Of a stretch of 41,098 bases of DNA, positions 11,116-37,500 are shown piece after piece (position 1 is the stretch's first letter; every line of letters starts with the position of its first letter). Below the pieces are notes generated by a model. It was not told the DNA's origin. It worked only from the letters and a program-made list of their open reading frames with translations, and searched no databases. The position numbers and the translations under genes were made by a program. The stretch spans positions 1 through 41,098 of the forward strand of contig CAITSE010000204.1 in assembly GCA_903894975.1 (NCBI GenBank). Reading direction: 5' to 3'. Source of the DNA: an uncultured Lentisphaerota bacterium (lineage in GTDB: Bacteria > Verrucomicrobiota > Lentisphaeria > Oligosphaerales > CAITYL01).

Positions 11116-13845
11116 ATGGCTAGCCAGGACAAAGCCTCAGCGTTGGGACACATCATGCCGCTGGACGGCATCTGGTCGGTAAAGCTTGAGCGGACTCCGG
11201 CCCGGACCCGCGGGTTCGTGACCCTGCCCGGCACGCTGGAAAGCAACGGCATCGGCGACCCGGCGGTTTTTCCCGCGGCCAACGGTCCGGCGCGACCACT
11301 GAGCTTTGCCGGCCCCGCCGTGTTCGAACGCACCGTGAGCATCCCCGACAAATGGGCCGGGAAAAGCCTCCGCCTGTTCCTGGAACTGGTGCACGGCCGG
11401 TCCCAGGTCTGGGTGGATGACAAACCCGCCGAAGGCAGCGGCCGCAGCCTGGCTGTGCCGCACCAGTATGACCTCACCAGCCTGCTCACCCCCGGCGACC
11501 ATGTGCTGCGGCTTCTGGTGGACAACACACTGGCCATCCCCCTTTCCCCGGCCGCCGCCGGCGGGGCCGCAAACCACAACTGGAACGGGGTTCTCGGCCG
11601 TTGCGAATTACGCGTCGCCGACCCCGTGAGCCTGCGTCATGTGGCCGTGACCCCGGATATCCGCAAGCTCACGGCCGTGGCCAAAATCACCGTCGAAAAC
11701 CGCACCGGCGCCATCGTCTCCGGCACCCTCGCGATCAAAGCCGCCACCTGCTCCTCCCCGCAGAAACATGCGCCGCCGGGGTTGTCCCTGCCGGTCGTGC
11801 TCAATCCCGGCGTGAACGCCCTGGAAGCCGTCCTGCCCATGGGCGACCGCGTCCAGTTCTGGGACGAATTCATCCCGGCCGTCTACCGCATGACGCTCGA
11901 CCTGACCTGCACCGGACCCGACCAGCGCCGCCTGCGCGACACCGCCGTCGTCGAATTCGGCATGCGCGAAATCTCCCGCAAAGGCACCCAATTCCATCTC
12001 AACGGCCGCGCCATCCTCCTGCGCGGCACCCACCACCGCGGCCTGTTCCCGGACGACGCGCGGAACCCCGCCGAACCCGCGGGTTGGCTCAAGTTCTTCA
12101 AGGCCGCCCGCGCCCACGGATTCAACTTGGTGCGCTTCCCGGCCTGGTGCCCGCCCGAAGCGGCTTTTGCCGCGGCCGATATCACCGGCGTCTATCTCAT
12201 GCCCGAATCCCCGGTCCTCGGCGACTGTGCCGGGCGCCCGGAACTGCTCTCCTTTGCCTGGAAAGAGGCGGAGCGTATCCTGCACGACTTCGGCGACCAC
12301 CCGTCCTTCCTCTTTTTTTCCATAGGCGACGGCCTGACCGGAAAACCGGAATCCGTCCTGGATCTGATCCGGCACCTGAAAAACCGCGATGCCACCAAGC
12401 TTTATGCCGCGGGAACCGATGCGGAATGGACCCGGGCCGGCTGTAGCCTGGATCCGGCCGCCGCCGACTTCGCCGCCGCCGCCACCCTGGTAACCGTCCC
12501 CGGGGCTCCGGCCTGCTCCCTGCGCCGCACCGGCCCCGGCGAACCGGCCTCTACCGAACCCGATCACGCCGCCGCCGTCCGCGCCCTCCCGGTGCCGTTC
12601 ATCGCCACCGGCCTCGGCCGCCTGGCCGCCCATCCCGGCCTCCACACCCGGGAAAAATACACCGGCCGGCTACGCCCGGCGCACCTGGAAAAATTACGGG
12701 AACGCCTTCTGGAACAGGGGATTGCCGATCGCGCCGCGGACTGGGCCGCCGCTTCCGGTCAGCTCGCCATCCTCCTGGCCAAAGAGGAAATCGAAGCCGC
12801 CATCCGCACCCCCGGCCTCGGCGGATTCCTCTTTTCCGACTTGGAAGACGCACCCGGCCCCGACGGCCTGGCCACCTGCGGGTTCCTGGACGAGTTCGGT
12901 GACAGCAAGGGGATCATCACCGCCGACCGCGTTCGCCGCTTCTGCAGCCCGATCGTCGCCCTGGCCCGTTTCCCCAGATGGGTGTGGACCACCAACGAAA
13001 CCTTGCGCGCCCGCATCGAAGTGGCGCACTATGGCGAAGAAGGCGGCCTGGACATCTCGGTCAATTGGAAGTTCCGGGTCGACGGCACCGTGCTCGCCTC
13101 CGGCACATTCCCATCCCTGGACGTGGCCCAGGGGCGCCTGATAACCGTCGGCGCCATTTCCGTGCCACTGGCCGTCTGCGACGCGCCCGCCAAGGGCACG
13201 CTCTCCGTCGAGGTGCGCGGCGCCGAAGCGGAAAACCGCTGGGACTTGTGGATCTATCCCGACCCCGCCCGGCAGGCCGACCCCGCCCTCCCCGAGGATC
13301 TCACCGTAACCCGGGCCTGGACTCCGGAGGCGCGCAACCGCCTCCTGGCCGGTGGCCGCGTCGTGCTCATCCCCGGCCCGGACGTAAAACTGGCCAACGC
13401 CATCCCGGGCCGTTTCCTGCCCCCCGACGACACCGCCGCCGATCCCGCCGGCGGCGCGGATTGGCCTACCCTCGGCCTCTGGTGCGACGTCTCCCACCCG
13501 GCCTTGGACCACTTCCCCACCGACGCCAGCGCCGGCTGGCAGTGGCGTGACCTGGCCGAACGCTCCCGCGCCGTCAGCCTGGATTTCCTGCCGCCATCCT
13601 TCCGCGCCGTGGTCGAAATCATCGACAACCCCACCCGCTGCCAGCGCCTGGCCTGCCTGTTCGAAGCCCAGGTCGGTCCCGGCCGCCTGCTTTTCTGCAG
13701 CGTAGACCTGGAGACCGCCATGGCCTCCCGTCCCGCGGCGCGCCAGCTCCGGCACAGCCTGCTGGCCTACGCCGCCGGCGACAGTTTCGCCCCGGCCCAG
13801 ACCATTCCCGTCACCGCGGTGGACGCCCTGTTCCAGGCCGGATGA
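11116..13845 (+). CDS. GH2-fold protein, apparent loss of both catalytic glutamates
   Basis: The 909-residue protein has the GH2 layout. An N-terminal galactose-binding-like sugar-binding domain (about 15-165) is followed by an Ig-like domain, a TIM barrel (about 280-600) and a C-terminal beta-rich region. It resembles a GH2 subgroup whose members carry HPSF...SLGNELGG (acid/base) and SHEIGQ (nucleophile). Here the matching segments read HPSFLFFSIGDGLTG and FIATGLGRL. The acid/base position is therefore G406, preceded by D405 where Asn is expected, and the nucleophile position is G499. The flanking family landmarks (KYTG, EEIEAA, DSKGIIT, RRFCSP) are intact. I infer a carbohydrate-binding or scaffold role, or an altered mechanism. 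No signal peptide is evident. I choose ATG 11116 because GGGGAT precedes it and the sugar-binding domain starts soon after. It is divergent from ferritin. Confidence 0.8.
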   Translation: MASQDKASALGHIMPLDGIWSVKLERTPARTRGFVTLPGTLESNGIGDPAVFPAANGPARPLSFAGPAVFERTVSIPDKWAGKSLRLFLELVHGRSQVWVDDKPAEGSGRSLAVPHQYDLTSLLTPGDHVLRLLVDNTLAIPLSPAAAGGAANHNWNGVLGRCELRVADPVSLRHVAVTPDIRKLTAVAKITVENRTGAIVSGTLAIKAATCSSPQKHAPPGLSLPVVLNPGVNALEAVLPMGDRVQFWDEFIPAVYRMTLDLTCTGPDQRRLRDTAVVEFGMREISRKGTQFHLNGRAILLRGTHHRGLFPDDARNPAEPAGWLKFFKAARAHGFNLVRFPAWCPPEAAFAAADITGVYLMPESPVLGDCAGRPELLSFAWKEAERILHDFGDHPSFLFFSIGDGLTGKPESVLDLIRHLKNRDATKLYAAGTDAEWTRAGCSLDPAAADFAAAATLVTVPGAPACSLRRTGPGEPASTEPDHAAAVRALPVPFIATGLGRLAAHPGLHTREKYTGRLRPAHLEKLRERLLEQGIADRAADWAAASGQLAILLAKEEIEAAIRTPGLGGFLFSDLEDAPGPDGLATCGFLDEFGDSKGIITADRVRRFCSPIVALARFPRWVWTTNETLRARIEVAHYGEEGGLDISVNWKFRVDGTVLASGTFPSLDVAQGRLITVGAISVPLAVCDAPAKGTLSVEVRGAEAENRWDLWIYPDPARQADPALPEDLTVTRAWTPEARNRLLAGGRVVLIPGPDVKLANAIPGRFLPPDDTAADPAGGADWPTLGLWCDVSHPALDHFPTDASAGWQWRDLAERSRAVSLDFLPPSFRAVVEIIDNPTRCQRLACLFEAQVGPGRLLFCSVDLETAMASRPAARQLRHSLLAYAAGDSFAPAQTIPVTAVDALFQAG

Positions 13846-13860
13846 ACCAAAACCTTTTTT

Positions 13861-13926
13861 TCTCACGGGGGCACAGGGACACGGAGAAGAGCGATCCTTC
13901 CTCCGTGACTCCGTGTCACCGTGAGA
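13861..13926. terminator. 26-bp imperfect inverted repeat after the GH2-like gene
   Basis: The left arm 13861-13886 (TCTCACGGGGGCACAGGG...) and right arm 13901-13926 (CTCCGTGACTCCGTGTCACC...) match at 21 of 26 positions around a 14-nt loop. A T-run precedes the left arm. The arms use a CCGTG word. It begins 16 bp past the stop codon, so it may end that transcript. Confidence 0.6.
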
Positions 13927-14049
13927 AGATGCATTCTTGTATCTTTGCGGTGCAGGAGAAAACCGCAACTCCCGCTCCGGCGCTATAGTATGCGGCTTGC
14001 CCTTTTCGCTTTGGCGATTGTCGCTTTTACCCCAGGCTTTCCTGACACC

Positions 14050-14070
14050 TGAACCCTGAACCCTGAACCC
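14050..14070. repeat. (TGAACCC)3 upstream of topA
   Basis: Three exact tandem copies of the heptamer TGAACCC end 24 bp before the topA start codon. Two copies of the same heptamer occur at 9513-9526. The function is unknown. Confidence 0.8.
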
Positions 14071-14094
14071 TTGGTTTCCGGACCCCACTCTTCT

Positions 14095-16989
14095 ATGAAG
14101 CTTGTCATCGTCGAATCTCCCACCAAGGCCCGCACCATCACCCGCTTCCTCGGCGGCGGCGACATCACGGTGCTCGCCTCCATGGGGCACATCCGCGACC
14201 TTCCCCAGCGCTCTCTCGGCCTGGATCTGCAAAACAAGTTCGCCCCGGTCTACGAGCTGACCACTAACGGCAAGCGGGTCATCAAGGATCTGAAAGCCGC
14301 CGCCAAAAAAGCCGCCGACATCTATCTGGCGACAGATCCTGACCGCGAGGGGGAAGCCATCTCCTGGCATCTCCAGGAACTGCTCAAGGACGGCACCAAG
14401 GCCAAGTTCCACCGCGTCACCTTCCACGAAATCACCCGCGAAGCCATCGCCCACGCCTTCGAACAGCCCACGGAACTGGACGTGCACAAGGTCGACGCGC
14501 AGCAGGCCCGCCGCGTCCTCGACCGCATCGTCGGCTACCAGGTCAGCCCCATGCTCTGGCAGTCGGTCCAGAAAGGCACCAGCGCCGGCCGCGTCCAGTC
14601 CGTCGCCCTCCGCCTGATCTGCGAACGCCAGCGCGCCATCGACGGCTTCACCCCGGTGGAATTCTGGACGCTGGACGCCATCTTCCGCACCCTCCAGCCG
14701 GAGGCCAAGTTCAACGCGCGCCTGGTCCAGCTCGACGGCCGGAAACTGCCCTTTGACAGCAAGCAATCCCTCATTCCCGACGCTGCCACGGCCAACGCCC
14801 TGGCCGCCGAACTCGAGGCCGCCTCCGGCTTCCGCATCAGCCGCGTCGCCAGCACCCCGAAATTCCAGCGGGCGCCCCCGCCGTTCATCACCAGCACCCT
14901 ACAGCAGGCCGCCGGCACCAACCTCGGCCTCGGTTCCGGCCTGACCATGCGCCTGGCCCAGGAACTCTACGAAGGCGTCGAGATCGGCAGCGAAGGCCCC
15001 TCCGGTCTCATCACCTACATGCGTACCGACTCGGTCGAGGTCGCCCGCGAGGCGCAGGAGGCGGCCCGCCGCTTCGTCGCCGCCACCTTCGGACCCGAAT
15101 ACGTTCCCGAACGCCCCAACGTCTACCGCTCGCGCCAGTCCGCCCAGGGCGCCCATGAAGCCATCCGTCCCACCGACGTCAGCCGCACCCCGGACAGCCT
15201 GGCCAAGTTCCTCTCGCCCAATCAGCTCCGTCTTTACCGCCTGATCTGGACCCGCTTCGCCGCCAGCCAGATGGCCCCGGCCCGCCTCCTGGAAAACAGC
15301 ATCGAGGTCACCGCCGAAGGCGCCGCCCTCACCCACCAGTACCTCTTCCGCACCGCCGCCACCTCCATCGTCTTCCCGGGCTTCAAGAAGGTCTACAACT
15401 TCCGCGACACCGAAGTCATCGCCCCCAAGAACGGCGAACGCGCCGAAGACGAGGACGACGCCGACGAATCGCAGAACCGTGACCTGCCCGTCCTCCCCGA
15501 GGGTGCCCCCTGCTCCCTGGACGAACTGAAAAAGGCGCAGAAATTCACCGAGCCGCCCAAGCCCTACTCCGAAGCGACCCTGGTCAAGGAACTGGAACAG
15601 AATGGCATCGGCCGTCCCTCGACCTACGCCACCATCGTCGAGACCATCCAGGACCGCGAGTACGTCACCAAGGAAAAAGGCCGGCTCGCTCCCACCCCCC
15701 TGGGCTACAACGTCAACGATTTCCTCGTCGCCCGGCTCCCGGACCTGTTCCAGGTCGGCTTCACCGCGGAAATGGAAAGCAAGCTCGACCAGATCGAGGA
15801 AGGCAACGTCAACTGGAGCTCCATGCTCGAGGAATTCTACCGGCAGTTCCAGCAGTGGGGCGCCGGCGGCGGCGGCGACGCCATTCCGGCCAGCGCCCCG
15901 GGCAATGAAACCGTCCTGCGCTTCCTCGCCCTGTTCCCGGCGGACTTGGTCTGGAGCGAACCCGAAAAGCGCGGCCGCCGCACCTACGACGACCGCAAGT
16001 TCCACGAGTCCCTCAGCGAACAGGCCACCAGCGGCAAAGCCATCTCCGACAAGCAGTGGCAGGCCATTCTTTCCATGGCCGCCCGCTATGCCGATCGCCT
16101 CCCCGGTCTGCTCGACACCGCCCGCGAACTCGGCGTCGCCCCCCAGATCGAAGCCCTCATCACCCATCACCAGATCCCCGCGGCGGAACGGGCCGCCACC
16201 AAGGCCGCCTCCTACGCCCACCAGGCAGCCGACGTCGCCCCCCTTCTCGAAGCCATGGCCAAGGTCGCTTGGGAAGCTCCCGTCAAGCGCGGCCGCCGCA
16301 CCTACGACGACAAACGCTTCTACAAATCCCTCGCCCGCCAGGCTGACGAAGGCCAGGGCGGTTTCAGCGAACCCCAGATGGACGCCCTCCGCCGCCTCGC
16401 CGTCAAGTATCACTGCCAGATCCCGGGCTTTGCCGAACTCGCCGCCCGCTTCCAGATCCCCGTTGCCGCCGAACCCGGTGCCGAACCCGTCGCCGGCGCC
16501 GGCGCCGCCGCCACCGGTGAAGCCGGTGCCGCCGCATTCGCCGGCAAGGGTGTGCCGCAGATGCTGACGGAGGCGGAAAAAGCCAAGGCCGCCGCCCTCG
16601 TCGCCCTCCTGGACGAAGTCAAGGAATGGAAACCCGCCACCCAGCGCCGCGGCTGGACCTTCGATGACCGCAAGTTCGCCGATTCCCTTCGCGACCAATT
16701 CGCCAAGCGCCAGTACCTCTCGCCCAAGCAGCTCGACGCGCTCCTCGGCATCCTCCGCAATTACCAAGAACAGATCCCCGACCTGGCCGCGCGCCTCGCC
16801 CCCTTCGGCGTCTCCGCCGAAAAGCCGAAGCCGGAAGTGATCGACGCCAAGTGCCCGAAGTGCGGTGCCCAGATGCTCAAACGCACCGCCCGCGGTCGGA
16901 TCTTCTACGGCTGTTCCGCCTTCCCCAAGTGCCGCCACACCGCCAACACCCTCCCCGATGCCGGCGGCGCGCCGCCGGCAATGGCCTGA
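14095..16989 (+). CDS. topA: DNA topoisomerase I with triplicated C-terminal domain
   Basis: The 964-residue type IA topoisomerase relaxes negative supercoils. The Toprim domain opens with KLVIVESPTKA (E9 region) and holds the acidic triad in TDPDREGE (D81, D83, E85). The catalytic tyrosine is Y308 in LITYMRTDS. The core ends near residue 590 (WSSMLEEFYRQF). Instead of the usual set of zinc ribbons, three copies of an ~80-residue unit follow. Each has W..P..KRGRRTYDD-like and S.KQ..A..-like segments, at about 607-680, 714-790 and 835-905. A single four-cysteine ribbon ends the protein (CPKC at 920-923, then GCSAFPKC). I choose ATG 14095 over the ORF-track start because MKLVIVESPTKA is the family N-terminus. 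No clear ribosome-binding site is present. Confidence 0.95.
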   Translation: MKLVIVESPTKARTITRFLGGGDITVLASMGHIRDLPQRSLGLDLQNKFAPVYELTTNGKRVIKDLKAAAKKAADIYLATDPDREGEAISWHLQELLKDGTKAKFHRVTFHEITREAIAHAFEQPTELDVHKVDAQQARRVLDRIVGYQVSPMLWQSVQKGTSAGRVQSVALRLICERQRAIDGFTPVEFWTLDAIFRTLQPEAKFNARLVQLDGRKLPFDSKQSLIPDAATANALAAELEAASGFRISRVASTPKFQRAPPPFITSTLQQAAGTNLGLGSGLTMRLAQELYEGVEIGSEGPSGLITYMRTDSVEVAREAQEAARRFVAATFGPEYVPERPNVYRSRQSAQGAHEAIRPTDVSRTPDSLAKFLSPNQLRLYRLIWTRFAASQMAPARLLENSIEVTAEGAALTHQYLFRTAATSIVFPGFKKVYNFRDTEVIAPKNGERAEDEDDADESQNRDLPVLPEGAPCSLDELKKAQKFTEPPKPYSEATLVKELEQNGIGRPSTYATIVETIQDREYVTKEKGRLAPTPLGYNVNDFLVARLPDLFQVGFTAEMESKLDQIEEGNVNWSSMLEEFYRQFQQWGAGGGGDAIPASAPGNETVLRFLALFPADLVWSEPEKRGRRTYDDRKFHESLSEQATSGKAISDKQWQAILSMAARYADRLPGLLDTARELGVAPQIEALITHHQIPAAERAATKAASYAHQAADVAPLLEAMAKVAWEAPVKRGRRTYDDKRFYKSLARQADEGQGGFSEPQMDALRRLAVKYHCQIPGFAELAARFQIPVAAEPGAEPVAGAGAAATGEAGAAAFAGKGVPQMLTEAEKAKAAALVALLDEVKEWKPATQRRGWTFDDRKFADSLRDQFAKRQYLSPKQLDALLGILRNYQEQIPDLAARLAPFGVSAEKPKPEVIDAKCPKCGAQMLKRTARGRIFYGCSAFPKCRHTANTLPDAGGAPPAMA
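15913..16815 (+). repeat. three-copy domain repeat inside topA
   Basis: Units start near 15913, 16234 and 16597. Copies 1 and 2 share an exact 27-nt stretch (AAGCGCGGCCGCCGCACC...) at 15967-15993 and 16285-16311. Copy 3 is diverged (RRGWTFDDRKF). The linkers are Ala-rich, and one is almost pure Ala/Gly (near 16495-16545). The family is not known to me. The KQ..AL motif recalls small helical modules in DNA-processing proteins, so DNA binding is a guess. Confidence 0.75.
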
Positions 16990-18592: not shown

Positions 18593-18718
18593 CCTCCCAA
18601 ATCGATAAGACGGTGAAGACATGGGAGCTTATAACGACCTATTAATTGAAGCGGACCAGAGATCGCGCCATACCGTTGACCCGCCGTCCAAGGTCCCTTC
18701 CCTTTATGTTGGTTCCCC

Positions 18719-18757
18719 CCACAGACCACAGACCATAGGCCCACCAGCCACAGACCA
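18719..18757. repeat. CCACAGA-word repeat upstream of the thioesterase
   Basis: CCACAGACCACAGACC, then CCACCAGCCACAGACC, is the complement of the CTGTGG words at 3848, 8217 and 17007. It ends 12 bp before the thioesterase start. The 177-bp gap after the toxin gene holds nothing else that I recognise. Confidence 0.6.
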
Positions 18758-18769
18758 TTCCCCAAAAAA

Positions 18770-19180
18770 ATGCCCGAAACCGACCACACCTGCATCTGCT
18801 GCGGCCGCGACAATCCCATCGGCCTCAAGCTGACCTTCACCTTTCCCACGCCGGACCAGGCCCGGACGGAAGTGGTTCTGCCCGCCCATTTCTGCGGCTG
18901 GAAAAGCCTGGTCCACGGCGGCGTCCTGGCTATGCTCCTGGACGAGGTCATGGCCAAGGCCTGCATCCAGGCCGGGTTCACCGCGGTCACCGCCGAGATC
19001 ACCGTGCGCTACCTCAAACCGGCGCACGTGAACACCCGCCTGACCGTGACCGGCACCATCACCGCCCGCAAACGCCGCATCCTCCATACCTCCGGCGAAA
19101 TCACCACCCCCGACGGCCAACGCCTCGCCACCGCCACGGCCGTATTCGTCGCCCAAACCATGCCGGCCATAACTCCATAG
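18770..19180 (+). CDS. PaaI-like hotdog-fold thioesterase
   Basis: The 136-residue single hotdog domain has the PaaI-type N-terminus C..CG..NP.GL (C8, C11) and the substrate-loop motif HGG (H49-G51) in SLVHGGVLAMLLDEVMA, with the presumed catalytic acid D58 or E59 in the following helix. Such enzymes hydrolyse acyl- or aryl-CoA thioesters in the cytoplasm, and the substrate is unknown. No clear ribosome-binding site precedes ATG 18770, and the next 12 bases upstream are A/C-rich. It has no clear operon partner: the next gene is 204 bp downstream. Confidence 0.86.
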   Translation: MPETDHTCICCGRDNPIGLKLTFTFPTPDQARTEVVLPAHFCGWKSLVHGGVLAMLLDEVMAKACIQAGFTAVTAEITVRYLKPAHVNTRLTVTGTITARKRRILHTSGEITTPDGQRLATATAVFVAQTMPAITP

Positions 19181-19384
19181 GCAGTCAAACGTTGAGAGTC
19201 TCCCCTCCCCCTGCGCTTTTCCGCAATCCGGCAGGCGGTATCCATCCCATGGCGTAAGGTGTTTGTCGCGGTTTTTTCCACGGACTGCTACGTTACAGCA
19301 CAAGACGCCGGAAGGAAAGACTCCCGTCCGGAATTTCCGCATCCATGGCGCTATCACGAGGATCGTGACAAACAGGAACCTTCC

Positions 19385-20167
19385 ATGCAAATCGGCATTT
19401 GTACCAGCGTTGACCAGGCCGCGACACTCCGCGAGGTTGGGGTGGACTTCATCGAGGAAAACGTCGGCGGCCTGCTCTGCCCGCTGCAACCGGAAGAGAG
19501 CTTCGCGCCGAACCTGATCCGCGTCCAGGCATCGCCCCTGCCGGTGCTCACGGCCAACTGTTTTCTGCCGGGAACCCTGAAATGCACCGGCCCGGCCGTG
19601 GATGTGGACGCCATCGCGGCTTTTGCCGAAACCACCTTCCGCCGCGCCGCCCTGGCCGGCCTGAAAAATATCGTCTTCGGCAGCGGCGGCGCGCGCCAGG
19701 TGCCGGAAGGGTTTTCCCGGGAAACCGCGTTTGTGCAGTTTGTGGCCGTGCTGAAACGGCTCGGCCCCATCGCGGGGGAGCACGGCATCCGGATCGTTGT
19801 CGAACCGCTCTGCCGCGGCGACTGCAATTTCCTCAACACCCTGGACGAGGGACTGGCCGCCGTGAAAGCCTGCAACCACCCCCAGGTCGGGCTGCTGGCG
19901 GACATCTACCACATGACCCGGAACGGCGAGACCCCCGACGCCATCACCCGCTGCGGCAGCCTGCTCTGGTATATGCACATCGCGGAAAACGCCAAGCGCA
20001 CCGCCCCGGGCGTGGCCGGCGATGACTTCCGGCCCTTCCTCCGTGCCCTGCGGCAGACGGGATACGATTACGTCATCTCCCTGGAATGCTCGGACTTCCA
20101 CATGCCGGGAGATGCCCCCGCCGCCGTTCGCGAACTTCGTCGGCAACTCGCCGATGTCGGGTATTGA
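19385..20167 (+). CDS. Sugar phosphate isomerase/epimerase-like TIM-barrel protein
   Basis: The 260-residue protein has the xylose-isomerase-like TIM barrel (AP_endonuc_2 family). Candidate metal ligands are E140 (VVEPLCRGDCNF), D173 and H176 (LADIYHM), H198 (MHIAEN) and E234 (ISLECSDF). This pattern matches D-tagatose/D-psicose 3-epimerase-like and inosose-type proteins. The substrate is unknown. The ORF track starts 42 codons earlier. I choose ATG 19385 because AGGAACC precedes it and the first beta strand (QIGIC) starts there. It may be part of carbohydrate catabolism, given the other saccharide genes nearby. Confidence 0.85.
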   Translation: MQIGICTSVDQAATLREVGVDFIEENVGGLLCPLQPEESFAPNLIRVQASPLPVLTANCFLPGTLKCTGPAVDVDAIAAFAETTFRRAALAGLKNIVFGSGGARQVPEGFSRETAFVQFVAVLKRLGPIAGEHGIRIVVEPLCRGDCNFLNTLDEGLAAVKACNHPQVGLLADIYHMTRNGETPDAITRCGSLLWYMHIAENAKRTAPGVAGDDFRPFLRALRQTGYDYVISLECSDFHMPGDAPAAVRELRRQLADVGY

Positions 20168-20257
20168 CACTTCCCCATCGCGATCTGAAGATGCCTGCAT
20201 CCGGGAGTCCCGGCGGCCCCCACCCGCTTTGCGCCTCCGTGCCTTCTGTTCAACCGC

Positions 20258-26486: not shown

Positions 26487-26649
26487 AAAATTTATTTTGA
26501 CAATTCGCCTTGCGCGCTGGCCGAATCCCTTTATTTTTAATTAAACGATTCATTTGATGGCGGCGGACATCCGCCGGTCTCTCATGCGATCCGATCATGT
26601 TGCACACTGTTATTACGTATCCCCTTCAACCCAAACAGGAAACCCGTTA

Positions 26650-29600
26650 ATGATCAAGGCAACCGGAACTCGCCTGCGGGCGGCCATCAGGCTGTGGCGC
26701 CCGTTTTTACTGCTGACAGCCTTTGGGTTGACTTGGGCATCCAAGGTCAGTGCCGCCAACGAAACGGTCACGGTGTACACGGCGACGCAATACCAGACAA
26801 TCATGGCATGGGGTGCGGGCGCGGGCTATTTTGCCCTTTCCGAAAAGGATTCGCTGCGGCTGCATCTGCTTGACGAAGCGGTGAATGGCGTGGGCATAAC
26901 GCGAGCCCGTTTTGAGCCTGGGGCCGGCTCCTCCCCGGATGGCGCCATGGACTGGGAGCTGTGGAATGACGACGGCGATCCCTCCACGACAACCATGAGT
27001 CAGATGAACCCGACGAAGATCGACGACGAGGCCACGCGGTTTTATCTGCCCATGAAGTCGTTGGTGGAAGCCAACAGCGAGACCTTCACCACCTACCTGA
27101 GCCCCTCCTATTTCACCAACGGCAGCAGTGGCGCGGCCCCCGCCTGGCTGTTGAACAGCCCCGGCGAACATGCCGAATACCTGACTTCAATCCTCCTGTA
27201 CCTGAAGAACACACACGGCATCACGGCGGACTACACCACCATCCTGAACAAGGCGGGCAACAACAACAATTACACCGCCACCGTCTGCGCCAACACCATC
27301 AAAGTCCTGGGCCCGCGGCTCGCGGCGTTGGGACTGCCCACCAAAGTCCAGTTCCCCGAGTGCATGCAGGCGGCGACATCCTACAGCTACATCACGGCGG
27401 TGCAGGACGACCCTGCGATCTGGCCGTACATCGGGCTTCTTTCGTATCACCTGTACGGGGGCGCCGACCCGGGCCGATCGAACCTCCGCGATTTCGGACT
27501 CGCGCGAAATATCCCTACCGGCCAGACGGAGTATATGGGCCTGACGGTGAGCATCCTGTATGACGACCTCATCAAAGGCGGGGTCTCGGTATGGGAGATT
27601 TACGCATGGAACGATGTCCTGCCGCCTGATGCGTCCCATTCGTGGTTCAGCCGCACGGCCCAATACTGGCAGATCCGCCAGGTCACGCGCTACGTGCGCC
27701 CCGGCGCCGTGCGGGTGGAAGCCGCTTCGAGCACGACCAACATCCGCCCGCTCGCCTTTGTCCGCAACGGCAAAATGACGGTGGTTCTCCTGAACAACAC
27801 CGTCAGCCAAGTGCCGAAGACCCTCGACCTGTCCGGGCTTCCCGCCGGCGAATACGGCGCCTGTTACTCGACCACCAACGCCACCGATTACACAGAACTG
27901 GGGCTGTTCACCGTCACCGTGGGCGGAACCTTGACCGTCACCGTTCCCGGGTCGTCGGTGCTGACGGTGTATCCCCATGAAACCAATCAGCCACCGACCC
28001 TGACCGACTGGAAAGCCACGCCCTCATTCCTGACGCAACCCGCCTCCGCCGCGACGCTGTCGGCGGCGGCACGGGATCCGGAGCTGGACGCCATTTCCTA
28101 TGCTTGGTCGGTGGCGAGCCAGCCGGCGGGAGCCGCAGCCATCCTCGCAACCCCATCCTCGGCAACCACCAACGTGAGCGGAATGACGGTCGCCGGCGAC
28201 TATGTCTTCGCCGTCGCGGTCCGTGATGCCACACACACCGTCACGCGCACCGTCGAGCTGACGGTATACGCGGGAAACCAGCCTCCGTATATCGGGAACA
28301 GCCACAATCGGTGGCCCGTCGTTGTCACGCTGCCGACCAGCACCACCACGCTGCGCGGCGGCGGAAGGGATCCCGAGGGCGATGCTCTGACCTACCAGTG
28401 GAGTCTGGTCAGCCAGCCGGCGGGGGCCAATGCGGCGCTGGCGGGGCAAACCACGAGCACGTGCTCCGTGTCCAACCAGACGGTGGCCGGCAATTATGTC
28501 TTCCAGTATTCGCTCAGCGATCCGACGCACACCGTTTCCCAGCAACTGACGGTTCCGGTTTATCCCGCGAACACGGCGCCGGTGATTTCCAGTGCCACGG
28601 CCACGGCCGCCACGATCACGCTGCCGACCGCCACCACCTCCCTGGCGGCGGTTACCAGCGATCCCGACGCCGCCGCGATCACGCCCTGGCGGCCCGGCGG
28701 CGATGTGCTGACCCACTGGTGGTCCGTCCAGAGCGCACCGGCCGGAGCCTCTCCTGTTTTCGCCAACCAGGGTGCGAAGAACACCGCGGTCGGCGGACTA
28801 ACCGCGACAGGCACATACGTCTTCCGGTTGACCGCCATCGACCGGACCTTGACGGCGACTAAAGACGTTACCGTGACGGTGGCGCCGCCGCCGTCGGTCC
28901 TGACATCCATCACCCTGGCGCCGACGAACACCGCGGTGCTGACCGGCGCGACCAAGCAGTTCACCGCGACCGCCAAGGACCAGTTTGGCGCCGCGATGTC
29001 GCCGCAGCCGACCTTCGGCTGGAGCGTGAGCGGCGGCGGCGCCATCAATGGCAGCGGCCTGTTCACAGCCGGCGGCACCGCCGGCGGACCGTACACGGTG
29101 ACGGCGACAAGCGGCGGCCAGATCGCCACGGCCAGCGTCACGGTGACGCCCGTGCTGGTTCCGGTGACGGTTGCGGCCAACACCACAAGCGGCGGCAGCC
29201 TAGGCCGGTACGACATCTACGAACTGACCATGACCGAGAGCGGGAGCTACGCCAACCCGTGGGAGGACGTGACCATCACGGCGGTCTTCACCTCGCCCTC
29301 GGCAAAGAGTTACACCGTCGGCGGATTTTATTACGACACAGCCACTTGGAAACTGCGCTTCGCGCCCATGGAACTGGGGAACTGGACCTGGAGCCTGACC
29401 TTCGACAACGGCGCGGGCAAGTTCGTCACCGGCGGCAACTTCACCTGCACGGCCTCGGGCAACAGCGGCTTTCTGCGCATGCAACCGGGGAACACCCGCA
29501 CCTTCATCACCGAGGGCGACAGCCGCCCGTTCTATGCGAACGGCTTCAACAAGCCCGCCTATACCGGCAACGGCGGCGTGGACGCGCCGACCTTTCCGAC

Positions 29601-32600
29601 CTTCATGGCTCCCTTCCGGGCCGCCGGAATCAACATGATCCGGGACAATGCCCAGGCCTGCCACACCAATGCCACGAACAATTATGGCAACAACCTCACG
29701 GTCAACGGGTTCAATGTCGGCGGGTCCGGGAAAAACAACTACGACACCGCCCTGGGGAAAGTCGAAGACCAGTATTACCAGTTGTTGCATCAGTCCGGCT
29801 TCAAACTCATGCTGGCGTTCATGCTCCACCCGAATCTCATCATCCCCAACTACGATGTGTCCAACCCGGCGGTCAAGGCCGCGGCCGAGAAATACCACAC
29901 CTACATGCTCAACCGCTTCTCGGCGTATGTGGACGTCTGGGAACTGGGCAATGAACTGAACAGCGTCACCCAGACGTACCTGGACACCGTCACCGGGATC
30001 TGCGGCGTCAAAGACCCCTATCAACATCCGCTGACCATCAGCAATCCGCAGGGCCAGCTTGACGAGTCCGGCCTGGCGGTCGTGGCACCGCACCGGTACA
30101 CGCCGGACGATAACTTGAAGATGGCCGACCTGGCGGCCTCCTGCCAGCGCAATCACGCCACCTATCCCGACAAGCCCCTGCTCTACGGTGAAGATGGGAA
30201 CTATACGCCCTACGGCAAGTACGATCCCGCGCGCTACCGCATCAGCATTTGGAGCGCGTTTACCAACCAGGCCGGGTGCCTGTTCTGGCTGGTAAGTTTT
30301 GACCAGAACTCCTGCGAGGCCGGCGCCGGGATCACCAACCAGTACATCGGCACGGAAGAGCGGGCACTGGCCAAGATCCTGGCCAATTTCACGGCCGATT
30401 TCGACCCATCGGCCGTACCCATGACGGCGACCCTGAACCCCTCCAACCAGATGACCGGGTCGGTGCTGGGCAGCGCCGTGGACATCGCCGGATACTTCAC
30501 CCATGCCACCAGCCATACCACGCCCCTGGCCGGCGCCAGGGTGACCCTGCTCATCCCGGCCGCCGGCATGCAGGGGCAATGGCTCGATCCCGCGACGGGC
30601 AACACCGTCCAGACCTTCACCGTGAACAGCGGCTCGCAAATTCTGACCCTCCCGACCTTCCGCTCCGACCTTGTGCTCCGCATCCGCGCCGCCGGCACGG
30701 CGCCGAAGCTCGAATTCAGCACGGCCAACTACAATGCGCGGGAAAACCAGGGCGTCCTCACCGGCACCGTGACCCGCTCCGGGTCGGCTGCGGGCGCGGT
30801 CTCCGTAACCTATTCGACCCGAGACGGCCAAGCCGTCGCCGGAACCAGTTACACCGCGGTCACCGGGACGCTCAGTTGGGCAGACGGCGACACGGCGCCC
30901 AAGACCTTCACCGTCCCCCTTCTGAACGACAACGTCTACGATGGCGACCGGGATTTCGCGCTGGTCCTGAGCAATCCGGCCGGCGGCGCCGGGCTGGGCA
31001 ACAATGCCGACGCGCTGGTCACGCTCTACAACGACGATTCGGACCTGGTGATGCTGAATGCCACGTCCTACGCGGTCATGAAGGATGCCGGAGCCACCGC
31101 CATCACCGTCCACCGCGTCGGCCGCGGGGTCGGCCCCGTCAGCGTCAACTACGACACCCAGGGCGGCAGCGCCACCACAAGCGACTACACGCCGATCCAG
31201 GCGGGGGCCACGTCGGTGACGGGCGTCATCAAGTGGGCGGACGGCGACCTCTCGCCCAAGACCGTCGCCATCCCGATCCTGAACAATCCGGGTTCGTCCG
31301 GCAACAAGACGTTCCGGTTCGAGCTCCTCAATCCCCAGGGCGTGGATATGGGCATGGCCTACCGGGCTACGGTCACGATTGTGGATCCGGCGGCCACGCG
31401 GGCCGGCGTCCTTCAGTTCGGCAGGTACTCGTATTTCACCAATGTCATCGGTGCCTGCGGCGCGACCGACGCCGGGTACGCGGTCACCCGCACCGCCGGG
31501 TCCGTCAGCGTTCCCGTTTCCCGCATCGGCGGCGCCGACGGCGCGGTCTCGGTCAGTTACAGCCTCATGGCCGGAACCGCCGTTGCCGGAGCGGATTACA
31601 CCAATGTTTCTGGCACCCTGTCCTGGGCGGACGGCGATGCGGCCGACAAGACCATCACCATCCCGGTGCTCAACAATGCGACGGCCTCCGGGAATGTCGC
31701 CGTCTGGGTGTACCTGAGCAGTCCCGTCGGCGGCGCGCTCCTCAACGGGTACATCGGCAACCGGGCCGCAATCGTGATCGCCGATCCCAACCTGCCGCCG
31801 GTGCTCGCCAACCCGCAGACCGCCGCCGGAACCGTCGGGAGCCTTTTCACCTGCACCGTTGCCGCCACCAGCACGCCCACCGCCTTCAGCGCCGCAAATC
31901 TGCCTTCCGGGCTCACCCTCAACCCCGCGACGGGCATCATCACCGGCACGGCCTCGGCCGGCATCGAAGGCGCCTATGACGTTGTGCTCGGCGCCGCCAA
32001 CGCCGGCGGCACGGGCTCGGCCCACCTGATGCTGACCCTCGGCCCGACCACAGCAACGGCCCCGGTCATCCTGTCCCAGCCCGCCGACACGGGCGTGACC
32101 GTGGGGCAGAGCGTCACCTTCTGCGTGACCGCCGCCGGCACGCCGCCCCTGAGCTACCAGTGGCGGCGGAACGGCGTGGTCATCGCCAACGCCGTCGGCT
32201 CCGCGTACAACATCACGTCTCCCGCGCTTACCGATCACGGTGCCCAGTTCAGCGTGGTCGTTACCAACAGCGTGGGAAGCCTTGCCAGCGGCACGGCCAC
32301 CCTGGCGGTTACCTCCTCGGCAACAGCCCCTTCCATCATCGCCAGCCCCGCCAGCCGCACCGTGAGCGTCGGGCAGACCGTGATCCTGAGCGTGACCGCC
32401 GCCGGTTCGGGGCCGCTGGATTACCTGTGGACCCGGAACGGCGCGAACATCGGCGGTGCGACCGCTTCCACATACACCATCTCGCCGGTGACCGCCGGGG
32501 AAAACGGCAACGCCTACGCCGTAACCGTCCAAAACACCATCGGGACCGCGACCAGCAACGACGCGGTACTGACGGTGAACGGAGGCACGCCGATCCTGAG

Positions 32601-34563
32601 CACGGTCAGCGTCGCGCCGGCCAACGTCAGCGTACTCACCACCGACACCCGGCAGTTCACCGCGACCGGCCGGGACCAGTACGGCGCGCTCATATCGCCG
32701 CAACCGGCCTTCGCCTGGGGCGTCAGCGGCGGCGGCAGCATTGACACCAACGGTCTGTTCACCGCGGGCGGCAGCGCCGGCGGCCCCTACATCGTCACAG
32801 CCTCCAGCAGCGGCTCGAGCGGCGCCGCCAGCGTCACCGTGACCCTGCCGCCGCCTGTCCTGACCTCGATCATCGTCTCCCCCACGAGCGCCGGCGTGGC
32901 GACCGGCACGACCCAGCAGTTCAGCGCCTCCGGCCGGGACCAGTACGGCGCCGCGATGTCACCCCAACCGACCTTCGCCTGGAGTGCCAGCGGCGGCGGC
33001 GGCATCGACACCAACGGCCTGTTCACCGCCGGCGGAACCGCCGGCGGACCGTACACGGTCACGGCTTCCAGCGGCGGAATTGACGGCACCGCGAGTGTGA
33101 CGGTGGTGGACCCCGCCATCCCGGTGCTGACCTCGATCGCCGTAACGCCGGCCGCCGCAGGCGTCGCCATCTCTTCGACCCAGCAGTTCAGTGCGGTCGC
33201 CAAAGATCAGCACGGCATCGCCATGGCCTCGCAGCCGACCTTCGCCTGGAGCGTTAGCGGCGGCGGCAGCATCGACGTCAACGGCCTGTTCACGGCCGGC
33301 GGCACCGCCGGCGGACCGTACATCGTGACGGCGACGGGCGGCGGCAAGAGCGGCACCGCCAACGTCACCGTGACCTCATCGCTGATCCTGTTCGACGATG
33401 CCGTCCATAGTTGCACCCTTTATGGAGCCAAAACGGTCCTGGCGTACTCGTCCACCGCGCCCGTCCACTCCGGCACCGTGGCCTATGGTGCCACATCCGG
33501 ATCTTCTTACCAGGGCGGTCTGGCCGGCAGCAACCTGGTCATTCCCGTCGGCAAAACCACGGTAAAAACCTACATCTACATCCAGTCGGCCACCGCGATT
33601 TCCGGGTTCATCGCCCAGTTGGGTGCCCCGAACTACACCTCGACCACCTTCAGCAACAGCTCGAACACCGCGTATTGGAAGGTCGACGGTGTCGCCGGCC
33701 GCGTCGCCATGACCGCCAACACCTGGCATGAGGTGACCCTGGACCTGGGCGGAGCCTTCGGCGCCACTCTGACGCCCGGCACGACCAAGTTAAACAATGT
33801 GACGGTCCTGTTCACCAGTGCGTCCGAGACCATCTATCTGGACGACACCAGCCTGACGGCCCCGGCCCCGGTCTTCACCACGCTGGTCGTGACCCCGACG
33901 GATGCGAGTGTGCAAGCCGCTCAGGCCCAGCAGTTCACGGCCGTTGCCAAAGACCAGTACGGGTATGACCTGTCACCCCAGCCGGCCATCGCCTGGAGCG
34001 TCAGCGGCGGCGGAACGATCACCGGCAGCGGACTCTTCACCGCGACCGGCGCCGGCGGCGGACCCTACACCGTCACCGCCACCAGCGCCGGAGTGATCGG
34101 AACCGCCAACGTGACGATCACGGGAACTCCCCATGACACTTGGAAGAACTCCCAGTTCGGCGCCAACGCGGGGAACCCGGCCGTCAGCGGCGACGCCGTG
34201 GTGAACAACGCGGCGGGCATCCCCAATCTGACCACCTATGCGCTCGGGGTGAACCCATACACGGCCGCGGCGACCGACCTGCCGGCCGCCGCCACGGTCA
34301 CGACCTCCGGCACGAGCTATCTCGCACTCTCCTTCACCCGCAACACGGCGGCGACCGACCTGACGCTCACCGTGCAAAGCAGCAGCGACCTGACCAATAC
34401 GGCCGGGTGGACGGCCGTGAGCACCTGGCACGCCGGCGCCTGGTCGCCCCCGGACCGCGTCCAGGAAAGCGGTGCCCCGCCGCAAGTCCAGGTCCAGGTC
34501 AAGGACACCGCGCCGGTGGGCTCGGCGCCCCGCCGTTTCCTGCGGCTGAAGATCGACCCGTGA
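26650..34563 (+). CDS. Giant secreted two-catalytic-domain glycoside hydrolase (GH30-like + DUF5060/clan-A GH)
   Basis: This is a 2637-residue exported protein. A signal peptide (cleavage near VSA, about residue 35) leads into these parts. A GH30-like TIM barrel comes first (about 38-440; predicted nucleophile E294 in GQTEYMG). Three PKD/REJ-like beta repeats follow (440-745) and one BIG2-type Ig repeat. A DUF5060 domain precedes a GH5-like barrel (acid/base E1102 in WELGNELN, nucleophile E1181 in LLYGEDG). Next come three Calx-beta repeats (about 1350-1710), a He_PIG-like repeat, two Ig domains and three BIG2 repeats. A jelly-roll-like module (about 2243-2405), one more BIG2 repeat and the C-terminal domain complete it. 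In the first barrel the NEP position reads N200-K201-A, so its acid/base may be lost. I choose ATG 26650, not 26554, because the signal peptide starts there and AGGAAA precedes it. Confidence 0.88.
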   Translation: MIKATGTRLRAAIRLWRPFLLLTAFGLTWASKVSAANETVTVYTATQYQTIMAWGAGAGYFALSEKDSLRLHLLDEAVNGVGITRARFEPGAGSSPDGAMDWELWNDDGDPSTTTMSQMNPTKIDDEATRFYLPMKSLVEANSETFTTYLSPSYFTNGSSGAAPAWLLNSPGEHAEYLTSILLYLKNTHGITADYTTILNKAGNNNNYTATVCANTIKVLGPRLAALGLPTKVQFPECMQAATSYSYITAVQDDPAIWPYIGLLSYHLYGGADPGRSNLRDFGLARNIPTGQTEYMGLTVSILYDDLIKGGVSVWEIYAWNDVLPPDASHSWFSRTAQYWQIRQVTRYVRPGAVRVEAASSTTNIRPLAFVRNGKMTVVLLNNTVSQVPKTLDLSGLPAGEYGACYSTTNATDYTELGLFTVTVGGTLTVTVPGSSVLTVYPHETNQPPTLTDWKATPSFLTQPASAATLSAAARDPELDAISYAWSVASQPAGAAAILATPSSATTNVSGMTVAGDYVFAVAVRDATHTVTRTVELTVYAGNQPPYIGNSHNRWPVVVTLPTSTTTLRGGGRDPEGDALTYQWSLVSQPAGANAALAGQTTSTCSVSNQTVAGNYVFQYSLSDPTHTVSQQLTVPVYPANTAPVISSATATAATITLPTATTSLAAVTSDPDAAAITPWRPGGDVLTHWWSVQSAPAGASPVFANQGAKNTAVGGLTATGTYVFRLTAIDRTLTATKDVTVTVAPPPSVLTSITLAPTNTAVLTGATKQFTATAKDQFGAAMSPQPTFGWSVSGGGAINGSGLFTAGGTAGGPYTVTATSGGQIATASVTVTPVLVPVTVAANTTSGGSLGRYDIYELTMTESGSYANPWEDVTITAVFTSPSAKSYTVGGFYYDTATWKLRFAPMELGNWTWSLTFDNGAGKFVTGGNFTCTASGNSGFLRMQPGNTRTFITEGDSRPFYANGFNKPAYTGNGGVDAPTFPTFMAPFRAAGINMIRDNAQACHTNATNNYGNNLTVNGFNVGGSGKNNYDTALGKVEDQYYQLLHQSGFKLMLAFMLHPNLIIPNYDVSNPAVKAAAEKYHTYMLNRFSAYVDVWELGNELNSVTQTYLDTVTGICGVKDPYQHPLTISNPQGQLDESGLAVVAPHRYTPDDNLKMADLAASCQRNHATYPDKPLLYGEDGNYTPYGKYDPARYRISIWSAFTNQAGCLFWLVSFDQNSCEAGAGITNQYIGTEERALAKILANFTADFDPSAVPMTATLNPSNQMTGSVLGSAVDIAGYFTHATSHTTPLAGARVTLLIPAAGMQGQWLDPATGNTVQTFTVNSGSQILTLPTFRSDLVLRIRAAGTAPKLEFSTANYNARENQGVLTGTVTRSGSAAGAVSVTYSTRDGQAVAGTSYTAVTGTLSWADGDTAPKTFTVPLLNDNVYDGDRDFALVLSNPAGGAGLGNNADALVTLYNDDSDLVMLNATSYAVMKDAGATAITVHRVGRGVGPVSVNYDTQGGSATTSDYTPIQAGATSVTGVIKWADGDLSPKTVAIPILNNPGSSGNKTFRFELLNPQGVDMGMAYRATVTIVDPAATRAGVLQFGRYSYFTNVIGACGATDAGYAVTRTAGSVSVPVSRIGGADGAVSVSYSLMAGTAVAGADYTNVSGTLSWADGDAADKTITIPVLNNATASGNVAVWVYLSSPVGGALLNGYIGNRAAIVIADPNLPPVLANPQTAAGTVGSLFTCTVAATSTPTAFSAANLPSGLTLNPATGIITGTASAGIEGAYDVVLGAANAGGTGSAHLMLTLGPTTATAPVILSQPADTGVTVGQSVTFCVTAAGTPPLSYQWRRNGVVIANAVGSAYNITSPALTDHGAQFSVVVTNSVGSLASGTATLAVTSSATAPSIIASPASRTVSVGQTVILSVTAAGSGPLDYLWTRNGANIGGATASTYTISPVTAGENGNAYAVTVQNTIGTATSNDAVLTVNGGTPILSTVSVAPANVSVLTTDTRQFTATGRDQYGALISPQPAFAWGVSGGGSIDTNGLFTAGGSAGGPYIVTASSSGSSGAASVTVTLPPPVLTSIIVSPTSAGVATGTTQQFSASGRDQYGAAMSPQPTFAWSASGGGGIDTNGLFTAGGTAGGPYTVTASSGGIDGTASVTVVDPAIPVLTSIAVTPAAAGVAISSTQQFSAVAKDQHGIAMASQPTFAWSVSGGGSIDVNGLFTAGGTAGGPYIVTATGGGKSGTANVTVTSSLILFDDAVHSCTLYGAKTVLAYSSTAPVHSGTVAYGATSGSSYQGGLAGSNLVIPVGKTTVKTYIYIQSATAISGFIAQLGAPNYTSTTFSNSSNTAYWKVDGVAGRVAMTANTWHEVTLDLGGAFGATLTPGTTKLNNVTVLFTSASETIYLDDTSLTAPAPVFTTLVVTPTDASVQAAQAQQFTAVAKDQYGYDLSPQPAIAWSVSGGGTITGSGLFTATGAGGGPYTVTATSAGVIGTANVTITGTPHDTWKNSQFGANAGNPAVSGDAVVNNAAGIPNLTTYALGVNPYTAAATDLPAAATVTTSGTSYLALSFTRNTAATDLTLTVQSSSDLTNTAGWTAVSTWHAGAWSPPDRVQESGAPPQVQVQVKDTAPVGSAPRRFLRLKIDP
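33376..33866 (+). repeat. shared jelly-roll-like module, copy 1 (in giant protein 1)
   Basis: The module of about 160 residues opens with ILFDDAVHSC and continues PVHSGTVAYGAT, NLVIPVGKTT, NTWHEVTLDLGGAFGA and IYLDDTSL. Its DNA is almost the same as the copy at 38488-38975, with exact runs such as CAGCAACCTGGTCATTCCCG. Two diverged copies lie at 36304-36815 and 36937-37410. I suspect a carbohydrate-binding module but recognise no named CBM family. Confidence 0.75.
34129..34563 (+). repeat. shared C-terminal domain, copy 1
   Basis: The ~145-residue end domain reads DTW.N.QFGANA, then VVNNAAGIPNLTTYALGVNP, and closes with PRRFLRLKI. The second giant protein ends in a near copy (39507-39942). 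In related PVC proteins the first part has D.DGDG.PN.LEYALG; here the calcium-loop-like aspartates are replaced (VVNNAAG). It is probably a sorting or anchoring domain. Confidence 0.8.
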
Positions 34564-34593: not shown

Positions 34594-37500
34594 ATGAACG
34601 GTACTATGCGACAGTTTCTTTCCCGGCCTCTTTTCTTGCTCTCCCTGGCATTGGTGCTGGCGATGGCCCTGAACGGCCATGCCAATCCGCCGGCCCCGGG
34701 CTGGACGCTCACGTTCGAGGATGAGTTCCTCGGCGTCAACCCGGACGGCACCGGCCTGGACCGAAGCAAGTGGACGCCCGGCCTGGGCACCTTGCGCTCC
34801 AACGGCGAGCAGGAGTGGTATGTGGATTCCCCCAACAACATCGCCATCTCCAACGGCACGCTGAAGCTGAATGCCATTCACGACCATCCGCCGGGCGGAG
34901 TCGGCCAGGGGCCGGGCCTGTGCGGAGACGGCATCACCCGCCCGGATTGCGACTATTCCTCGGGAGAGGTGATCACAAAGAGCTCCTTCTACCAGCGCTT
35001 CGGATACTTCGAAATCCGCTGCAAGATGCCTGCGGGCAAGGGGCAATGGCCGGCATTCTGGCTGCTCCCGGCCGATCCAGGCGGGTGGCCGCCGGAATAT
35101 GACATCTTCGAAAACCTCGGGGACAAGACCAAAACCCTGTACTTTTCCAGCCATGTGAGCCCGCTCTATCCGTATGTGGGCGGCGGCGTCCGCAAGGAGG
35201 TCGGGCAGTATGTCACGTCGGGCACGGTTAATTACTCCGCGGGGTTTCACACCATTGGCTTTCTCTGGAAGCCCGGCCGGATCAGTTGGTACCTGGACGA
35301 CGTCCCGCAGGGAACGCTCCGGCGCTATGTCCATTACATGTCGCCAATGTATCTCCTGGCGAACCTGGCCGTGGGCGGGAGCTGGCCCGGTTACCCGGAC
35401 GGGTCTTATCCTTTTCCGACGACCCTGGAAATCGATTACATCCGGGCTTGGGAACTGCCCCAACCCAGTCCCTGGCAGACCGCGGACATCGGCAGTCCCG
35501 GGCTGGCAGGCCGGGCCTCCTGGTGCGACGGCGTCTTCGACGTCACCGGCGAGGGCAACGACATCTGGGGCTGCAGCGACCAGTTCCGCTATGTCTACCG
35601 CCCCCTCAATGGCGACGGCGCCATCACCGCCCGGGTGGCCAGCCTGAAAAACGGCACCACCACGGGCGGCGCCCAGAATCCCTGGGTCAAGGCCGGCATC
35701 ATGATCCGCGAAACCCTGGACGCGAATGCCAAAACGGCCATGGTCGGCGTCACCCCGGGCGGAAACGGAAGCTTCTTCCAATCCCGCGCGGCCACCAACG
35801 GCGCCACCGCCGCCGTGGTGCCGTGGAACGCCCAGACTCCTTACTATTGGGTCAAGCTTGTCCGGAACGGTTCCGTCCTGACGGGCTCAACCTCGCCGGA
35901 CGGTTCGGCCTGGACGCCGATCGGCACCGCCACCATCGCCATGGGCGCCTCCGTGTATGCCGGGCTTGCCGTCACCAGCCACAACCCCGGCACATTGGCG
36001 GACGCGCAGTTCGACCAGGTCGCGGTTTCCTCAGCGGCGCCGGTTCTGACCTCGATCGCCGTTTCCCCGACCGGCACAACCATCGCCGCGGGCGGATCCC
36101 GGCTGTTCACCGCGACCGGGTATGACCAGTTCGGCGGCGCGCTGTCGCCGCAACCGGCCATTGACTGGGACGTCACCGGCGGCGGCGCCATCGACGACAA
36201 CGGAGTGTTTTCCGCCTGTGCCGTGGCCGGCGGCCCCTACATGGTGACGGCCGCGAACGGAAGCGTCCAGGGCGCCGCCACGCTGTCCGTCCTCGCCCCG
36301 CCGGCGGGAGGCAGTCTGGTCCTTTTCGACGACACGCTGCGGAACGGCTGCACCTTCACCGGAGTCGCGGCCCAGGCCGGGACGCCGGTCCATTCCGGCA
36401 CGGCGGCCTACGGCGGGACGGCAAGCGCGTACGCCCAGTTCGGGTTGAGCTGCCACGGCCTGGTGGTGCCCGCGGACAAAACCGCGGTCCAGTTCTGGTT
36501 CTACATCTCCGGCACCGCCACCGGCATCGGCGGGTTCATGGTCCAACAAGGCTCGGGCAGTTACCCGACCGCAAGCTTCTCTTCCAGCACCGGCGTCTGG
36601 ACGGTCGACGGGTTCTCCGGAACCACCACCAAGGGCAAGCCCGACGCCATTACGCCAAACACGTGGCACCTGGCGACGCTGAATCTGGCGGCCACCTTCG
36701 CCGCGGCCGGCAAGACCTTCACCCCGGGCGTCACCAAGCTGAACACGGTTGTGGCCCAGGTAACCAATGCGGCGGAAACGATTTACATGGACGACGTCAG
36801 CCTGGTGCCGGAGTTGTCCGCGCCGGTGGTGGCCAAGCCGGACGCCCTGTATCCGGCGCGGGTCTCCACCCTGCCCGCGCCCGGGCCGGTCCTGCCGCCG
36901 CGGTCGCTCCTGCCCCCGCCGGGCGTCGCCGGCATGGGCGGAATCTGCCTCTTCGACGACCTGCCGCAGAACGGCTGCACCTACTCGGGCAGCATCGCCG
37001 CGCTCACCTCGCCGGTCCACTCCGGCACGGCCGCCTATGGCGCGACCGCCGGCGGGTCGCCCCAGCTCGGACTGTCCCTGAACAAGCTGGTCGTTCCCGC
37101 CGGACAGACGACGTTGAAAATGTACGTCTACGTGAAAAGCCCCGCGACCGGCGTCCTCTCCTTCATGGTGGCGCTGGGACCGCCGACCTACCAGAGCTTC
37201 ACCTTCAACAACTCCAGCACGGCGTATTGGACGGTCGACGGCGCACCGGGCAGCGTCAACATGACCGCCAATACCTGGCATGAGGTGAAACTGAACTTGG
37301 CCGGCGCGTTCGGCGCCAGCCTGGTCCCGGGCACGACCAAGCTCGGCTCCGTGCTGACCCAGTTCACCAGCGGCTCGGAATCCGTCTATATGGACGATGT
37401 GTTCCTGGTTCCCCCGGATGGGTTCACGCCCGTCCTGGCCTCCATCACCCTGGCCCCGGCGGCCGTCGCGCTGCCACCGGGTTCAACCCGGCAGTTCGTC

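Follow-up and report, generated by a model that had tools for sequence, protein, structure and literature searches.

A gene in the window, by which we mean the whole 41,098-nucleotide stretch of DNA from an uncultured Lentisphaerota bacterium that was analyzed, encodes a full-length GH2-like protein in which glycine stands in place of both catalytic glutamates. We favor, with a probability of roughly 0.6, the reading that this protein is a lineage-specific GH2 pseudoenzyme which arose from a BT4151-type exo-beta-1,4-galactosidase and acts as a binding or scaffold protein. Judging from its sequence, the gene probably encodes a "dead" enzyme that has been retained for a noncutting job; it is a singleton, and the closest sequence found in the order, the class, the phylum sample and the named genome collection is only 39 to 40% identical to it. 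BT4151 itself has been described as belonging to a trio of periplasmic exo-beta-1,4-galactosidases whose targets are RG-I side chains (PMC8002723). The gene, its domains and the altered positions are as follows.

11116 to 13845, plus strand: GH2 BT4151-type protein of 909 amino acids, without a recognizable signal peptide (open reading frame; NF049890; 8u01; N-terminal hydrophobicity)
11143 to 11655, plus strand: N-terminal jelly-roll (GH2 sugar-binding) domain, residues about 10 to 180 (PF02837; AlphaFold2 strands)
11971 to 12945, plus strand: TIM-barrel domain, residues about 286 to 610, less conserved than is typical of the family (PF02836 under threshold; AlphaFold2 secondary structure; identity by domain)
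12139 to 12141, plus strand: P342, replacing an invariant His (His in 56 of 56 relatives)
12328 to 12333, plus strand: D405-G406, replacing an invariant Asn-Glu pair whose Glu is the acid/base on barrel strand 4 (Asn and Glu in 56 of 56)
12607 to 12612, plus strand: T498-G499, replacing an invariant His-Glu pair whose Glu is the nucleophile on barrel strand 7 (His and Glu in 56 of 56)
12862 to 12864, plus strand: D583, replacing an invariant Gln on the loop that follows barrel strand 8, where one residue is also inserted (Gln in 56 of 56)
13276 to 13830, plus strand: C-terminal domain, residues 721 to 905, as conserved as that of active relatives (39.7% identity to sisters, compared with 30.5 to 42.0% for controls)

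The original prediction had described an intact frame of 909 codons, and the open reading frame indeed runs from 11116 to 13845 on the plus strand without a stop. The best family model was NF049890 (exo-beta-1,4-galactosidase BT4151), which matched residues 63 to 907 (557 bits, 5.7e-167). Its equivalog cutoff of 1500 bits was not reached by the GH2-like protein, nor by four Glu-bearing relatives, which scored higher (704 to 976 bits). Among Pfam models, PF02837 (GH2 N-domain) matched at 2.6e-6 with 27.9 bits against a cutoff of 28, and PF02836 (GH2 barrel) matched weakly, under threshold. The nearest solved structure by sequence was 8u01 from Phocaeicola plebeius (phmmer, E value of 1.8e-124), which was also the top Foldseek match (TM-score of 0.87) of an AlphaFold2 model with a mean pLDDT of 88.7 and a pTM of 0.91. 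Both AlphaFold2 and Foldseek indicated the jelly-roll, Ig-like, TIM-barrel and C-terminal fold of the family. By descent, the protein is thus a BT4151-type GH2 member, with full-length homology, the same domain order and a nested position in the family tree. It differs from BT4151-type enzymes in the changes at the six listed residues, in the absence of a signal peptide and in its bit score. LacZ-type GH2 beta-galactosidases share its fold (Foldseek E value of about 1e-34), but they are only about 15% identical to the GH2-like protein, which lacks their catalytic residues.

In clan GH-A, the catalytic glutamates lie on strands 4 and 7 of the barrel. We aligned 57 sequences, namely, the GH2-like protein and 56 relatives. 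The acid/base column held Glu in all 56 relatives and Gly406 in the GH2-like protein, and the nucleophile column likewise held Glu in all 56 relatives and Gly499 in the GH2-like protein; both glutamates were also kept in four further relatives (two haloarchaea and two Bacteroidota). The corresponding motifs read SIGDGLTG (residues 402 to 409; 12319 to 12342) and ATGLGR (residues 497 to 502; 12604 to 12621), where the relative L043 has MGNELGG and SHEIGQ. The double replacement of Glu by Gly had been predicted from the sequence at 12316 to 12621, on the strength of family motifs; the replacement was confirmed, the coordinates were right within one codon, and the motifs given for the family agree with those of real relatives. 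A catalytic Glu relocated nearby was also looked for and was rejected, since none aligned at or beside either column.

The alignment further indicates that the extent of change had been understated. Four more columns, each invariant in all 56 relatives, were altered solely in the GH2-like protein (H342P, N405D, H498T and Q583D); the four further haloarchaeal and Bacteroidota relatives retain these residues too. The protein therefore has neither the Asn-Glu acid/base pair of an active GH2 retaining glycosidase, with D405-G406 in its place, nor the Glu nucleophile, with G499 in its place. Given these residues, canonical GH2 double-displacement hydrolysis would be impossible. Both glycine codons are GGC, two bases away from GAA or GAG, and so do not represent single base-call errors; together with the intact frame and native codon usage, these two-base differences ruled out a base-call or frameshift artifact.

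We then asked where the losses fall. There were 73 near-invariant positions (shared by at least 96% of relatives), 62 of which were kept and 11 of which were lost in the GH2-like protein. We took the C-terminal strand ends of the barrel in the model to be the active-site face; 6 of the 11 lost positions lay there, compared with 3 of the 62 kept ones (Fisher P = 1.9e-4). Other diverged members showed nearly no strand-end losses (none in six of seven and one in the seventh), and we conclude that the catalytic face is specifically affected. The earlier statement that the landmarks surrounding the catalytic positions are conserved thus held only in part: most near-invariants were kept, but six of the nine on the barrel's active-site face were lost. 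Identity to the sister clade was about 10 points below that of most active controls in the barrel and was normal in the Ig2 domain (38.5%; controls, 27 to 38%) and in the C-terminal domain (39.7%; controls, 30 to 42%). This pattern fits a removal of catalytic constraint from a protein that was kept folded, though it does not prove selection without close orthologues.

Two of the substitutions count against the pseudoenzyme reading, since the aligned sequences place new acidic residues, D405 and D583, in the pocket region. These might take over catalysis with a different mechanism or substrate. In keeping with such a rewired enzyme, both Asp residues occupy positions (Asn and Gln) that are invariant in 56 relatives, and the barrel-face residues R303, R340 and E364 are retained. 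However, H342, H498 and both glutamates are gone together, and no protein in any collection searched has such an arrangement, so that we regard a rewired enzyme as unlikely. We give similarly little credence to the related idea of a cytoplasmic neofunctionalized GH2 protein, in which a pocket rebuilt around Asp405 and Asp583, as substitutes for the two glutamates, would serve other chemistry or ligand sensing.

A galactan-binding lectin, which would use the old active-site pocket without cleavage, appears very improbable. In its favor, the fold and the jelly-roll domain are retained, and pseudoenzymes are known in families of plant-cell-wall-degrading enzymes, for example, in beetles (PMC6549527). 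Nevertheless, a lectin specific for this sugar would be expected to retain the polar invariants H342, N405, H498 and Q583, all of which are replaced, and the protein has no signal peptide with which to meet the polysaccharide. Because the residues around the catalytic pair were lost with the glutamates, reuse of the galactose subsite by a lectin seems unlikely. Under the favored pseudoenzyme reading, the protein would accordingly not use the old galactose subsite for grip, the contact residues being gone as well. It would instead bind a partner in the manner of a scaffold or sensor, via its beta-sandwich or C-terminal domains or via a remodeled mouth of the barrel.

In phylogenetic trees, the GH2-like protein nested in a clade of Glu-bearing, putatively Verrucomicrobiota-type proteins (SH-aLRT of 96 to 97), which implies a Glu-bearing ancestor and a derived loss. 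Its end branch (1.23 to 1.29) was the longest in both trees, an observation that fits relaxed constraint too and to that extent counts against the pseudoenzyme reading. Only 3 of 48 genomes of the order contained matches at E values up to 1e-40, and these were the window genome itself and its two relatives. No sisters lacking the glutamates were found in the 48 order genomes, in 198 class genomes or in 388 sampled phylum genomes, nor were any found in 346 genomes of another relative's class or in genome and viral contig collections; the existence of a clade of such sisters was therefore rejected. General decay of GH2 genes in the genome was rejected as well, since eight of nine other GH2 loci keep both motifs by inspection, with the ninth (L001) left out because its longest displayed frame is antisense.

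The protein is thus known as a single sequence, from a metagenome-type assembly of 376 contigs that is 89% complete, with no orthologue sharing the loss, and this also counts against the pseudoenzyme reading. The original suggestion of a selected noncatalytic role is supported in part. Canonical catalysis appears to be lost from a protein whose frame and fold were kept, as expected of a pseudoenzyme. Retention of the folded multidomain protein by selection is putative, no orthologue above 39 to 40% identity and no sister with the same loss having been found; the identities by domain and the drift simulations described below support it indirectly.

The combination of a singleton without a close orthologue, the longest end branch and lowered barrel conservation could also be produced by a young pseudogene, in which the enzyme became dispensable and the active-site constraint went first, with the frame not yet broken. 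The locus, moreover, differs from that of two family-level relatives, which have dprA upstream of topA. We consider this a doubtful alternative. GC content by codon position was 0.70/0.53/0.84 (GC3 of 0.838, compared with a GC content of 0.546 in the downstream intergenic DNA), and both GC3 and the synonymous-codon score of 0.43 matched those of the neighboring housekeeping genes proA, ppi, tly and topA; this comparison leaves out the rows for ferritin (wrong frame) and for 18707 to 20200 (strand doubtful). We also simulated neutral drift under several models and rates, with indels uncounted. Changes in all six pocket codons together with 909 stop-free codons were obtained in 0 of 1,500 runs at nearly every setting, a test that is biased by the six codons having been picked because they had changed. 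The sole exception, 1 of 1,500, came at the most GC-biased and most diverged setting, which would have erased the observed family identity. The native codon usage, the normal conservation of the noncatalytic domains and the retention of 62 of 73 invariants likewise argue against a young pseudogene. With no stop, native codon usage, a confident model and conserved noncatalytic domains, the gene bears no obvious mark of a pseudogene.

Klotho (GH1) is a pseudoenzyme with a glycosidase fold. Beetle GH28 pseudoenzymes also keep the glycosidase fold after the loss of catalytic residues (PMC6549527). The GH2-like protein resembles both in that the fold survived that loss. Those proteins, however, are multicopy or conserved across species and their roles have been studied, whereas the protein described here is a bacterial singleton. 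We found no published case of a bacterial GH2 pseudoenzyme in the literature searched. If maintained, the protein would be a bacterial example of a GH2 pseudoenzyme, from which one could begin to learn what large glycosidase scaffolds do after catalysis ends; its singleton status makes this a modest finding. Annotation pipelines are likely to name such proteins galactosidases, although both residues that justify the name are absent here.

No hydrophobic signal stretch was found at the N terminus from either possible start. Such a stretch is present in most bacterial relatives, and some relatives, e.g., the haloarchaeal ones, appear to lack it. The absence of a signal peptide makes the cytoplasm the most likely location of the GH2-like protein, in contrast to most of its relatives, which are exported; such a location would not be unusual in the family.

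The gene is flanked by a ferritin gene (minus strand) upstream and topA (plus strand) downstream. In two family-level relatives, the order read from translated open reading frames was aroB, dprA, topA. The dprA-topA arrangement is absent at 13846 to 14094, the GH2-like gene lying upstream of topA instead, and none of the window neighbors except topA itself was found beside topA in these two relatives, so that a conserved operon context was rejected. The differing neighborhood indicates that a rearrangement created the junction at which the gene is located.

Several further features of the window were observed. On the minus strand, an open frame of 690 amino acids (12694 to 14766) extends across the gene's 3' half and into the beginning of topA; this GC-rich window has many long antisense frames. 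Shortly after the gene ends, at 13862 to 13925, lies a palindromic pair of the dispersed repeat CTCCGTGNCNCNGTGNNNCCGTGAG, of which the genome holds 52 copies, several as inverted pairs, compared with 0 copies of the reversed control. Together the two copies form a strong hairpin (z = -6), and the pair is a REP-like element. Farther along, a gene at 26554 to 34563 encodes a 2,669-amino-acid protein that carries Calx-beta, PKD-like, DUF5060 and Ig domains and is probably a large protein of the surface or secreted. It is directly followed, at 34594 to 39942, by a gene for a 1,782-amino-acid protein with a GH16 domain near the N terminus and a bacterial Ig-like domain.
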